From: Dialister pneumosintes
GTDB lineage: Bacteria > Bacillota > Negativicutes > Veillonellales > Dialisteraceae
Reading direction: 5' to 3'
Assembly (NCBI RefSeq): GCF_001717505.1
Contig: NZ_CP017037.1
Span: forward strand, 473,001 to 537,000
DNA length: 64,000 nucleotides
The notes under the pieces are model-generated. The model saw nothing but the letters and a program-made list of their open reading frames with translations, searched no databases and had not been told where the DNA came from. A program made the translations under genes and the position numbers. Positions 23,301-42,014 of the stretch are shown here, one piece after another (within the stretch, counting starts at the first letter, position 1; each line of letters begins with the position of its first letter).

Positions 23301-23313
23301 AAGTAATACCGTG

Positions 23314-23453
23314 ACTCATCAAGAGTAGCAGAGGGAACGGCCCAATGAAGCTACAGCAACCATCTATTATAAGATAAGGTGCTAATTCCAACAGTTTATA
23401 TGCTGTTAAGATGAGGGAAAATGGCTAGCCCCTCATGAGAGGAGCTTTTTTTA
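23314..23453 (+). promoter_or_regulatory. SAM-I (S-box) riboswitch with terminator, controlling metK
   Basis: The leader has the S-box core: CTCATCAAGAGTAGCAGAGG, then GAACGGCCCAATGAAGC, CAGCAACC, and AAGGTGCTAATTCC, closed by GATGAGG (P1 pairs 23315-23320 with 23410-23415). Downstream, AGCCCCTC / GAGGAGCT (23427-23446) plus a T-run is a terminator. ATGAGGG (23411-23417) can instead pair with CCCTCAT (23430-23436), an antiterminator. With SAM bound, P1 forms and transcription stops; without SAM, metK is read. Confidence 0.93.
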
Positions 23454-38003: not shown

Positions 38004-39290
38004 ATGAAATTGTTAATCAAAAACGTTGCAATTTCTTGTGATGAAGGGAAGACAAAAGAGCATCAAAATATAGAGATTATAAATAATAAAATAACAGGAT
38101 TCCCGACAAATCCTGTTGAATCTATATATGATAAAGTGATTTTTGGAAAAAACTGTTTAGCATTACCCGGACTAGTCAATACACACACACATGTTGCAAT
38201 GACTTTGTTTAGAAGTTATGCCGATGATATGGAACTTATGGATTGGCTTCAGAATAAAATTTGGCCGGCAGAAGAATATTTAGATGATGATATCGTATAC
38301 TGGGGAAGTATGCTTGCTTTCGCAGAAATGATTCGCGGTGGAACGACTTCATTCTGTGATATGTATATGTATATGAATGCATGTGCAAAAGCCGCTTTAT
38401 CATGTGGAATAAGGGGGAATATTGCCAGAGGATTGGCAGGTGTCTCTCCGAATGGTAAGCAAGCTTTACAAGAAAATATAGAACTTTTTAAAACATGGAA
38501 CGGAGCAGGTGATGGACGTATACAAGTTATGCTTGGTCCTCATGCTCCCTATACTTGTCCACCATCTTATCTAAAAAAAGTAAGAGAAATTGGTGAAAAA
38601 TATGATATTCCTGTTCATATACATTTAGCTGAAACAAAAACTGAAGTAAATAATTGCATAAAAGAATATGGAATAACTCCTATACAACTAATGAAAGATA
38701 TAGGTCTTTTTGATATTCCTACATTAGCAGCACATTGTGTACATATAACTGAACAAGATATTCGTATTATGGCAGAAAAGAAAGTGTGTATCGCTCATAA
38801 TCCGGGAAGCAATTTAAAATTAGCTTCCGGTATAGCACCGGTTCTTGCTATACGCAAAGCAGGAATTACTTTAGGATTAGGGACAGATGGTGCTTCCAGT
38901 AACAATAAATTGGATATGTTTTCAGAAATGAGATTAGCCGCACTTATTCATAAAGCAACCTCTTACTTGCCTAAAGCCGTTACTGCAAAAGAAGCATTAA
39001 ATATGGCTACCTATGAAGGTGCTAAATGTCTTGGTTATTCTAATTTAGGAAAGTTAAAAGAAGGGTGGTTAGCAGATATTATTTTAGTAGATCGCTCAGG
39101 ATTCCATTGGAAACCCAATTTTAATGATATCTCTATTGCTGTATATGCAGCGAATTCGCAAGATGTAGATACCGTAATTATCAATGGACAACCTCTTATG
39201 GTACATAAGGAGATGCTTACTATTGATGTAGAACGTTTAAATTATGAAGTAAATCGTGTAGTAAAAAAATTATATGCGTTTAATCGATAA
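38004..39290 (+). CDS. mtaD: 5-methylthioadenosine/S-adenosylhomocysteine deaminase
   Basis: MtaD deaminates methylthioadenosine or S-adenosylhomocysteine to the inosyl forms. The 428-residue amidohydrolase has the metal site NTHTHVAMTLFR, VHIHLAETKTEV, LAAHCVHI and GLGTDGASSNN. It closes the mtn group 11 bases after mtnA, then a terminator. Together with mtnP this offers two entry routes for methylthioadenosine. Confidence 0.93.
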   Translation: MKLLIKNVAISCDEGKTKEHQNIEIINNKITGFPTNPVESIYDKVIFGKNCLALPGLVNTHTHVAMTLFRSYADDMELMDWLQNKIWPAEEYLDDDIVYWGSMLAFAEMIRGGTTSFCDMYMYMNACAKAALSCGIRGNIARGLAGVSPNGKQALQENIELFKTWNGAGDGRIQVMLGPHAPYTCPPSYLKKVREIGEKYDIPVHIHLAETKTEVNNCIKEYGITPIQLMKDIGLFDIPTLAAHCVHITEQDIRIMAEKKVCIAHNPGSNLKLASGIAPVLAIRKAGITLGLGTDGASSNNKLDMFSEMRLAALIHKATSYLPKAVTAKEALNMATYEGAKCLGYSNLGKLKEGWLADIILVDRSGFHWKPNFNDISIAVYAANSQDVDTVIINGQPLMVHKEMLTIDVERLNYEVNRVVKKLYAFNR

Positions 39291-39297
39291 TTTATCT

Positions 39298-39328
39298 AAA
39301 AACTACTAAAATATTTTGGTAGTTTTTT
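39298..39328 (+). terminator. Terminator after mtaD
   Basis: AAAAACTACTAAAA pairs with TTTTGGTAGTTTTT (one G-U pair) across a two-base loop, with T-run. Confidence 0.85.
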
Positions 39329-39339
39329 ATTATAATAAA

Positions 39340-39353
39340 AGAACATTCGTTCC
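39340..39353. promoter_or_regulatory. LexA-box-like operator 1
   Basis: AGAACATTCGTTCC fits the Gram-positive SOS box core GAAC-N4-GTTC without mismatch. A TATAAT lies directly before it at 39331-39336, on the plus strand. Confidence 0.65.
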
Positions 39354-39375
39354 TTTAAAGAAACGGTTTTACAGA

Positions 39376-39389
39376 AGAACATTTGTTTC
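39376..39389. promoter_or_regulatory. LexA-box-like operator 2
   Basis: AGAACATTTGTTTC fits GAAC-N4-GTTT, one mismatch from the SOS box core. It is 36 bases from operator 1, close to the 37-base spacing of the paired boxes at yneA/lexA. Its 3' end could overlap a -35 for TATAAA at 39410. Confidence 0.55.
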
Positions 39390-39492
39390 TTCTTATATTA
39401 TCCTAAATTTATAAAAAACTATTTTTATATTTTAAAATATGGTGAACTATTTTTATGGTATAAAAACAAAATATATTATTAAAATATTAAAT

Positions 39493-39531
39493 AGGACGTG
39501 TTTCATCAATATAAAAGAAACATCCTTTTTA
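39493..39531 (+). terminator. Terminator-like hairpin in the non-coding stretch
   Basis: TGTTTC and AGGA pair with GAAACATCCT (two-base CG bulge) over a 12-base loop, followed by TTTTT. Confidence 0.55.
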
Positions 39532-39631
39532 TTATTTACAAACTCTTACTCTTATTATTTTATTAAAAGAGAGCCTCCCAATATAAGAAGATTGATTTTT
39601 TGTAATTACTTTAGTTATAATGGAATAAACA

Positions 39632-39670
39632 ACATTAGTTCCGATAATTTAACGTTATCGGAACTAATGT
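39632..39670. repeat. Perfect 16-bp inverted repeat upstream of the recombinase
   Basis: ACATTAGTTCCGATAA and TTATCGGAACTAATGT flank TTTAACG. There is no T-run on the plus side. It may be an RNA hairpin or a recombinase-binding site. Confidence 0.75.
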
Positions 39671-39733
39671 ATTGATTTTAAACAATTTTGTAGATATTAT
39701 TTGCTTTCAATATATAAATTTGCTCAAAATCCC

Positions 39734-39858: not shown

Positions 39859-40842
39859 TTGTCTAAAAATAAACATTTTTATATACGGAATTTTATAGAA
39901 AAACATCAGCAAAGTATGCTATCAGATAAAAGTTTGCAATCACTTGCAGATTCTAAAGCAGAAAGTACTATTAATTCTTACGAGTCGGATTGGAATGATT
40001 TTTGTGATTGGTGTCAATATCATAAACAATCCTCCTTCCCTGCTTCTGCAGAAACTGTTGTAAATTATATTAATGATTTAGCAGATTATGCTAAAAATTC
40101 GACTATACGACGTCGAATTAGTGCTATATCCGAGAATTATAATGCAGCAGGTTCAGTTGTAAAAAATCCTTGTAAAGAATGGATTGTAAAAGAAACTTTA
40201 GTTGGGTTAAGTAGACGAAAAGGTATTGCACAAAAAGGGAAAACTGCTATTTATTGGGAAGAACTTGAACAAATGGTTGCTAGCATGAATCCAGATAATT
40301 TAACGGATATTAGAGATAAAGCTATTTTATTATTAGGATTTATGGGAGCATTTAGACGTAGTGAATTATCAAATTTACAAATAGAAGACTTGTCTTTTTA
40401 TCCACAAGGGATGATCGTTACCATCGAACAATCAAAAACTGATCAAATGGGCGAAGGGCAAAAAGTAGGAATTCCATATCTTAAAGATACCAATATGTGT
40501 GCTATACTTGCAGTAAAAAAATGGCTACAAGAAATAAAGCATACCTCTGGTCCTTTATTTAGAAGAATACTAAAATCAGGAAAATTAGGAAATACTGCAA
40601 TTAGTGATAAATCAATTAATCTTATTGTAAAAAAATATGTTGGCCGTATTGGATTGCAAACAGATTTATATGGTGCTCACAGTTTACGACATGGATTTGC
40701 AACTTATGCAGCTCTTCATGGCATTGAAGAACGTATTATAATGAAGCAAACTAGACATAAATCTGTAGAAATGGTACGTCATTATATTAACGAGGCTAAT
40801 TTATTTGTAAATAATCCTATTGCTATGATATTTAATAAATAA
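39859..40842 (+). CDS. Tyrosine recombinase/integrase
   Basis: It cuts and rejoins DNA through a tyrosine intermediate. An N-terminal SAM-like domain (about 25-110) is followed by the catalytic domain with all key residues: R in FMGAFRRSEL, K in IEQSKTDQ, HSLRHGFAT (HxxR), then TRHKSVEMVRHYI with the second histidine and nucleophilic tyrosine. GGAGG at 39845 sets a TTG start at 39859, giving 327 residues; the frame is open further upstream. It differs from XerC/D in the AFRRSEL box, which is usually G(L)RxSEL. It is converged on by the yneA-like gene. Chromosomal or mobile-element origin is undecided, as no attachment sites were found. Confidence 0.9.
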   Translation: MSKNKHFYIRNFIEKHQQSMLSDKSLQSLADSKAESTINSYESDWNDFCDWCQYHKQSSFPASAETVVNYINDLADYAKNSTIRRRISAISENYNAAGSVVKNPCKEWIVKETLVGLSRRKGIAQKGKTAIYWEELEQMVASMNPDNLTDIRDKAILLLGFMGAFRRSELSNLQIEDLSFYPQGMIVTIEQSKTDQMGEGQKVGIPYLKDTNMCAILAVKKWLQEIKHTSGPLFRRILKSGKLGNTAISDKSINLIVKKYVGRIGLQTDLYGAHSLRHGFATYAALHGIEERIIMKQTRHKSVEMVRHYINEANLFVNNPIAMIFNK

Positions 40843-40869
40843 AAAACACCATATAATGGCGTTTTTTAT
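40839..40869. terminator. Bidirectional terminator between recombinase and yneA-like gene
   Basis: AAAAAAC and CCAT pair with ATGG and GTTTTTT with one mismatch in between. T-runs on both strands serve both convergent genes. Confidence 0.75.
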
Positions 40870-41147
40870 TTATTAATAATAGGAACTCGAATGGTTTGGC
40901 CAGGCACTAAAGCAGCCGGATTAGTAATATTATTAACTTCTTCTAACTCAAATACATAACTTCTAATGTCAGTATCATCAGAGATATGCCTTCCTGCAAT
41001 AGTCCATAATGTATCATTATACTCTACTGTTACAGTTGTATATAATGGCTCATTAGAAATCATATCTGCATTTACTGCATATCCAAACATAGCTAATAAT
41101 ATAACACATAATATTGTTAGTAATATTTTACGATTTCGTTTTTTCAT
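40866..41147 (-). CDS. yneA: YneA-like LysM protein, probable SOS cell-division inhibitor
   Basis: This encodes 93 residues: a basic start, one membrane segment (about 8-24), then a LysM domain (about 40-90, TVEYNDTLWTIAGRH...LVPGQTIRVP). Size, layout, divergent position next to lexA and LexA boxes in its promoter match Bacillus subtilis YneA, which blocks septum formation after DNA damage. AGGAGG precedes the ATG. The name rests on context more than on sequence identity, since LysM is common; a plain wall-binding protein is the alternative. Confidence 0.75.
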   Translation of the reverse strand: MKKRNRKILLTILCVILLAMFGYAVNADMISNEPLYTTVTVEYNDTLWTIAGRHISDDTDIRSYVFELEEVNNITNPAALVPGQTIRVPIINK

Positions 41148-41185
41148 TGTATTCCTCCTGTTGCATGTATTAGAACATACAATCC

Positions 41186-41238
41186 CCGAACTAGTGTTCT
41201 TTTGATATCTTTATTTTATCAAAAGAACACTAGTTCGG
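41186..41238. promoter_or_regulatory. 22-bp inverted repeat containing two LexA boxes
   Basis: Arms at 41186-41207 and 41217-41238 are perfect mirror copies around a nine-base centre. Each arm carries a LexA box: CGAACTAGTGTTCT (41187-41200) and AGAACACTAGTTCG (41224-41237), 37 bases apart. The repeat lies between yneA and lexA, so LexA bound here should repress the yneA promoter and probably lexA. Confidence 0.85.
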
Positions 41239-41266
41239 TCAATACCAAGGGCGAAAATATTTTTCC

Positions 41267-41280
41267 TGAACGAGTGTTTG
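41267..41280 (+). promoter_or_regulatory. LexA box overlapping the lexA promoter
   Basis: TGAACGAGTGTTTG fits GAAC-N4-GTTT. Its right end overlaps the -35 of lexA, as expected for autoregulation. Confidence 0.75.
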
Positions 41281-41306
41281 CACTTTTTTTAGTCTTCTTT
41301 TATAAT
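41278..41306 (+). promoter_or_regulatory. lexA promoter
   Basis: TTGCAC and TATAAT are separated by exactly 17 bases, the transcript starting near 41313. LexA box 41267-41280 covers the -35. Confidence 0.85.
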
Positions 41307-41378
41307 AAAATAAAGAAAATATGAGACAATATCTATTAAAATCTATAATTTATTTATGCTTTGAAAGGAATATCGGTT

Positions 41379-42014
41379 GTGCCACATAAAAAATTAGGAA
41401 CAAAACGTTCTCTTACTACTAGAGAACAGTCTATTCTTACTTGTATAAAGAATAAAATCAGAGAAAACGGATTTCCCCCTACTGTACGTGAAATATGTAA
41501 TGAAGTAGGACTGCGTTCTACTTCTACAGTACATGGTTATTTAGCTCGATTAGAAGAACTGGGTGTTATCAAACGTGATCCTTCCAGCTCTAGAGCTATT
41601 GAAGTTACAGAAGATATGTCTTGGCGGAAAAAGAAAATGATTCCGACCCCTATTGTTGGAGCGGTGCGTGCAGGAGAACCTATTATTGCGGAAGAAAGAG
41701 TTGAAACGGTTCTTCCCCTTCCTGCAGAACTTATTGGTAATCAGAATTCTTTTATTCTTACTGTTCGCGGAGACAGCATGATTAATGTGGGAATTTATGA
41801 AAATGATTTATTAGTTGTGGCACAACAAAATACAGCTAATAATGGAGATATTGTGGTTGCATTAGTAGGAGAAGAAGAAGCTACCGTTAAAACTTTTTAT
41901 AGAGAAGCAGATCATATTCGATTGCAGCCTGAAAATGATGATTATGAGCCTATCCGTTCTGCAGAAGTAAGAATTTTAGGAAAAGTAATAGGTCTTTATA
42001 GACATTATAATTAA
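41379..42014 (+). CDS. lexA: SOS repressor LexA
   Basis: LexA represses DNA-damage genes and cleaves itself when bound to RecA filaments. The 211 residues have an N-terminal winged helix (LTTREQSILTCIKNKIRENG...STSTVHGYLARLEELG), the Ala-Gly cleavage site in VGAVRAGEPI, and the catalytic serine (VRGDSMIN) and lysine (ATVKTF). GTG 41379 is preferred, ten bases after AAAGGA; the frame also has a TTG at 41361. It is autoregulated by the box at its promoter. Confidence 0.97.
   Translation: MPHKKLGTKRSLTTREQSILTCIKNKIRENGFPPTVREICNEVGLRSTSTVHGYLARLEELGVIKRDPSSSRAIEVTEDMSWRKKKMIPTPIVGAVRAGEPIIAEERVETVLPLPAELIGNQNSFILTVRGDSMINVGIYENDLLVVAQQNTANNGDIVVALVGEEEATVKTFYREADHIRLQPENDDYEPIRSAEVRILGKVIGLYRHYN

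Follow-up and report, generated by a model that had tools for sequence, protein, structure and literature searches.

Among the papers found for this study, single-recombinase systems are named only in streptococci and lactococci, Helicobacter and Campylobacter, the Legionellales, and Archaea (PMC5357621, PMC9765430), and reviews regard adjacency of the recombination site and the recombinase gene as a possible hallmark of such systems (PMC5357621). XerS/difSL of streptococci and lactococci and XerH/difH of Helicobacter and Campylobacter resemble the locus described here in having one tyrosine recombinase and an adjoining, terminus-proximal site (PMC5357621). LexA is already known to act on the dimer-resolution machinery in one case: ftsK of E. 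coli has an SOS promoter (dinH) (PMC4080785). A largely open-access literature search found no paper that deals with a Xer/dif system in Negativicutes or with a Xer recombinase under LexA control.

The window, by which we mean the whole 64,000-base stretch of Dialister pneumosintes DNA that was analysed, contains an mtaD-like amidohydrolase gene that ends at 39290, upstream of a pair of LexA boxes. The gap between this gene and the recombinase gene (xer), together with the adjoining yneA and lexA genes, comprises the following features.

39298..39327, + strand: hairpin terminator of the mtaD-like gene, flanked on each side by T-runs (-11.2 kcal/mol, z -6.0), just upstream of the LexA boxes
39341..39352, no strand: LexA box 1, GAACATTCGTTC, a perfect palindrome (from matrix score and genome-wide pattern count)
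39377..39388, no strand: LexA box 2, GAACATTTGTTT, 7/8 match, 36 bases from box 1
39494..39530, + strand: modest terminator-like hairpin with a U-run (-10.8 kcal/mol, z -3.8)
39592..39621, + strand: highest-scoring promoter-like pair in the gap, TTGATT-18-TATAAT, score 10.5, a candidate xer promoter
39632..39670, no strand: dif-like site, a perfect inverted repeat with 16-bp arms, ACATTAGTTCCGATAA / 7-base core TTTAACG / TTATCGGAACTAATGT (from conservation in the order, splitting in two relatives and the nearby GC-skew switch)
39859..40842, + strand: single Xer-type tyrosine recombinase, 327 aa, TTG start, ribosome site TTGGAGGT (PF00589 and PF02899)
40866..41147, - strand: yneA-like LysM protein of the SOS division inhibitor type (from open reading frame and synteny)
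41188..41279, no strand: three LexA boxes between yneA and lexA (41188, 41225, 41268), the reference SOS operators
41361..42014, + strand: lexA (TIGR00498, above cut-off)

The recombinase has the conservation and intact active site of a Xer core gene. Its active-site residues (R166, K193, H274, R277, H300 and Y309, assigned by motif) are invariant in 30 orthologues, the protein was found in 57 of 60 relatives and is near-universal in Veillonellales, and it is the only PF00589 match in six relatives' genomes. Scores against the models of XerD (64.0 of 329.6 bits), XerC (61.8 of 335), XerS (45.6 of 267) and archaeal XerA (73.9 of 220) are all below cut-off, and the protein was therefore not filed under XerS, XerC/D or XerA. 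In a class-wide sample of 200 genomes, XerD was present above the curated cut-off in 101, and in none of the 45 that belong to Veillonellales. The FtsK-gamma domain (PF09397) was found in all 12 genomes tested. This appears to be a lineage in which XerC/XerD have been replaced by one recombinase on a perfectly symmetric dif.

In the class-wide search, a Selenomonadaceae-like family (f14) is also without XerD above cut-off and frequently has a homologue of the recombinase (45-49% identity), and several other Negativicutes families have both XerD above cut-off and a homologue. Megasphaera relatives carry a second tyrosine recombinase of 370 aa beside its own TTCCGATAA-N7-TTATCGGAA site (L275 10905-12327, L276 12072-13494; also L277 and L278). 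In two of these relatives, a LexA pair with 36-base spacing lies upstream of the 370-aa recombinase, beside a divergent gene.

Of all structures in the gap, the hairpin at 39632-39670 is the strongest (-22.9 kcal/mol, z -8.2), and its sequence is present in a single copy in its own genome. The pattern TTCCGATAA-N7-TTATCGGAA, with up to two mismatches, was found in 54 of 60 relatives, mostly in one copy per genome, although a few of the two-mismatch matches in this count look like chance; the f2 family has no site of this form. Where contigs allow measurement, the site and the recombinase gene are separated by about 50 bases to 4 kb in relatives, and by tens of kb when an element has been inserted. 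Such an element parts the site from the recombinase in G007 and G008, where 26 or 20 bases, consisting of the core and right arm, remain on the recombinase side. These half sites are what strand exchange in the core would be expected to leave; in G001, a half-site was sought on the xer side and not found. GC skew, computed from sampled stretches of the genome, is positive on the left side of the site and negative on the right side; its sign changes at window 42034, at a distance of 2.4 kb from the site, and location of the site and xer at the replication terminus is well supported. The site agrees with what is expected of a Xer/dif site, namely a length of about 28 bp, inverted arms around a core of 6-8 bp, one copy in most genomes, and a terminus location. 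A plain terminator was considered for 39632-39670 and rejected, because throughout the order the arms keep their sequence, whereas their distance to genes differs. The arm AGTTCCGATAA looks similar, by eye, to the XerC-side arm of B. subtilis dif, which we regard as a lead.

Based on conservation of the site, its proximity to xer, the splitting of its core, its terminus position, the near-universal recombinase, the lack of XerD, and the presence of FtsK-gamma, 39632..39670 is probably dif, and site and recombinase are best read as a dif/single-Xer module that adjoins yneA and lexA. Recombination at the site by this recombinase is predicted, with an indirect hint from the core-split sites in two relatives.

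The elements in G007 (L044) and G008 (L045) are about 37-40 kb in size, have their own tyrosine integrase, and lie between two copies of the site, with the full copy on the mtaD side (L089, L092) and the half site on the xer side. The G007 element encodes lexA-like and yneA-like genes.

LexA operators at yneA/lexA are ordinary. The initial annotation reported a second pair of boxes upstream of the recombinase, and both sequences are indeed present, 36 bases apart from start to start. They were scored with a LexA matrix made from 53 boxes between yneA and lexA, taken only from other genomes of the order in order to avoid circularity. Within the 64-kb window, the site at 39340 (box 1) ranks first with a score of 16.2 and that at 39376 (box 2) ranks fourth with 13.8, and the two perfect yneA/lexA boxes, with 15.8 each, come between them; ranks 1 and 4 under an independent matrix amount to a match to the lineage's own LexA box, as for a Firmicutes-type LexA operator. 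The perfect palindrome GAACN4GTTC occurs in 5 places in the 1,274,073-base genome, one of which is box 1, and 3 of the 5 are clustered within 1.9 kb at the xer/lexA locus. Even when one mismatch is tolerated, the genome has a single pair of RAACN4GTTY at 36 bases, and the reversed control pattern gives no such pair in the whole genome. Owing to the top ranks, the unique 36-base pairing and the rarity of perfect palindromes, it is well supported that these boxes are, as sequence, a true LexA operator pair, and LexA is predicted to bind at 39341 and 39377.

The resemblance of the spacing to that at yneA/lexA, also part of the initial annotation, is borne out: the pair at 41188 and 41225 is 37 bases apart, and the second box lies 35-37 bases from the first in most relatives' loci that have a pair. 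The plan of the yneA SOS promoter, read from 41100-41400 and from the yneA/lexA gaps of L037-L055, is the same across the order, with one LexA box in the spacer between TTGACA and TATAAT, and a second box in addition. The order recombinase-yneA-lexA is kept in 19 of 20 relatives' loci read. In Dialister micraerophilus (G005), two LexA-like boxes 36 apart form an inverted repeat (L040 9423-9470) in the space where the genes yneA and xer converge, and might be a terminator or an operator.

At 39341/39377, the pair spacing of the yneA type is kept, but TTGACA is missing. Promoter scoring found no consensus promoter that overlaps the boxes on the + strand, where the best candidate has a score of 5.9 and a 20-base spacer, compared with 12-14 for the yneA promoters. 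On the - strand, the best overlapping candidate scores 7.2 and has a yneA-like geometry, with a -35 hexamer that matches in only 3/6 positions. The TATAAT at 39331-39336 sits on the flank of the mtaD terminator. Given the absence of TTGACA and the poor promoters on both strands, transcription from the boxes could run in either direction. The recombinase does have promoter-like elements of its own, as had been noted, at 39592 (the pair ending at 39621, 10 bases before the dif-like site) and at 39672. These look stronger than those at the boxes, and are without LexA boxes.

The boxes had been described as facing non-coding DNA. No open reading frame with a credible ribosome site was found in the approximately 470 bases between the boxes and the TTG at 39859, in agreement with that description, but the gap does contain a conserved dif-like site that belongs to the adjacent recombinase. 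A 78-aa open reading frame (39439-39675) extends across the dif-like repeat, is without a ribosome site, and gave no Pfam or NCBIfam match. A small protein behind the boxes was rejected, since gap open reading frames of at least 20 aa are without a ribosome site or cross the dif-like repeat. A phage or plasmid origin of the gap was likewise rejected for want of a match.

Our preferred reading, held tentatively and at somewhat less than an even chance, is that the LexA pair makes transcription of the dif-xer locus SOS-responsive. Without DNA damage, LexA on both boxes would repress a promoter in the mtaD-xer gap. After damage, cleavage of LexA would allow transcription rightward through the dif-like site into xer, supplementing the nearer promoters of xer itself, and the supply of recombinase would rise when recombinational repair creates chromosome dimers. 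We infer the regulated transcript, its rightward direction and xer as its target; xer is the only gene downstream of the boxes on the + strand. Most of the 45 other loci scanned have no LexA site upstream of xer; such sites occur in 3 (G048, G001, G019; p <=0.01), and 2 of these are paired, 35-36 apart (chance about 0.01). Several findings speak against control of xer: the terminator-like and dif-like hairpins between boxes and gene, the weak + strand promoter at the boxes next to stronger-looking xer promoters without LexA boxes, and the lack of the pair in intact mtaD-xer gaps of other family members. A long transcript from the boxes into the recombinase, the outcome that had been set against a small RNA, is nevertheless slightly favoured. 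Damage-inducible dimer resolution, in which LexA would directly control transcription through dif into xer and tie it to the adjacent yneA/lexA division block, is possible but rather doubtful.

Alternatively, the boxes might be the relic of an SOS-controlled gene or element once integrated at the dif-like site, so that they may bind LexA and drive nothing. Between mtaD and the dif-like site there are about 340 bases in this genome, compared with about 30-100 in G002, G004, G005 and G006, so that DNA was gained. Elements do insert at this site, one of them with the lexA-like and yneA-like genes mentioned above, and preservation of the pair spacing in the absence of a core promoter would suit a remnant. 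Both boxes are nearly perfect, however, which one would not expect in an A+T-rich genome if the DNA were not under selection, and neither a mobile-gene remnant nor a half-site was found in the gap. We consider this origin unlikely.

The small RNA put forward in the initial annotation would start from a promoter at box 2 and end, after about 110-130 bases, at the hairpin 39494-39531. SOS control stands at the level of the LexA operator pair, and the 470 bases free of genes would accommodate such an RNA; the small RNA itself fares less well and is quite improbable. The hairpin, previously placed at 39493-39531 as the end of the transcript, does carry a U-run and folds better than nearly all shuffles, but it is modest, and the stronger hairpin at 39632-39670 had been overlooked. 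A strict terminator scan made no call for 39494-39525 because of its bulged stem and 12-base loop, which precede the U-run. The promoter at the boxes is weak, and the gap has no Rfam match even at E = 1, so that a known RNA family was rejected. Conservation of boxes and hairpin across relatives, proposed as a check, was not found: neither is at the corresponding place in relatives, and in the other genome of the genus nothing aligns to the gap except the dif-like repeat. Elsewhere in the window, a SAM riboswitch (RF00162, 86.7 bits) is present at 23313-23417.

A leftward SOS promoter, with box 1 in the spacer of a - strand TTAAAG-18-TATAAT and an antisense RNA covering the end of the mtaD-like gene, is very unlikely, for although its geometry is that of the yneA promoter in the same window (a -35 hexamer directly against the box, then 6 bases and the -10 hexamer), the -35 match is poor, RNA synthesis would begin within the mtaD terminator with its T-runs both ways, and the transcript has no apparent purpose.

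If the preferred reading is true, chromosome dimers in Veillonellales are resolved by a single recombinase at a symmetric site beside the SOS master genes. Members of this order (Veillonella, Megasphaera, Dialister and relatives) are common in the mouth and gut. Compared with known systems, the core of difSL is 11 bases long and its arms are unequal (PMC5357621), whereas the site here is perfectly palindromic with a 7-base core, and the recombinase is below the XerS cut-off. XerL/dif of Legionellales is similar in that one recombinase replaces XerC/XerD on a palindromic dif near the terminus, and in that integrating elements exploit the site (PMC9765430), a likeness to XerL drawn from its description; in L. 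pneumophila, however, over 400 kb separate dif from xerL (PMC9765430), whereas here site and recombinase gene are adjacent. The yneA/lexA SOS promoter of Veillonellales shares the box sequence and the 35-37-base pairing with the pair described here, but its strong TTGACA-box-TATAAT core is absent at 39341/39377. In the case of E. coli ftsK it is the translocase that is induced, whereas here the operator is at the recombinase and its site, which raises the question of whether the recombinase step of dimer resolution is damage-induced, like the FtsK step in E. coli.
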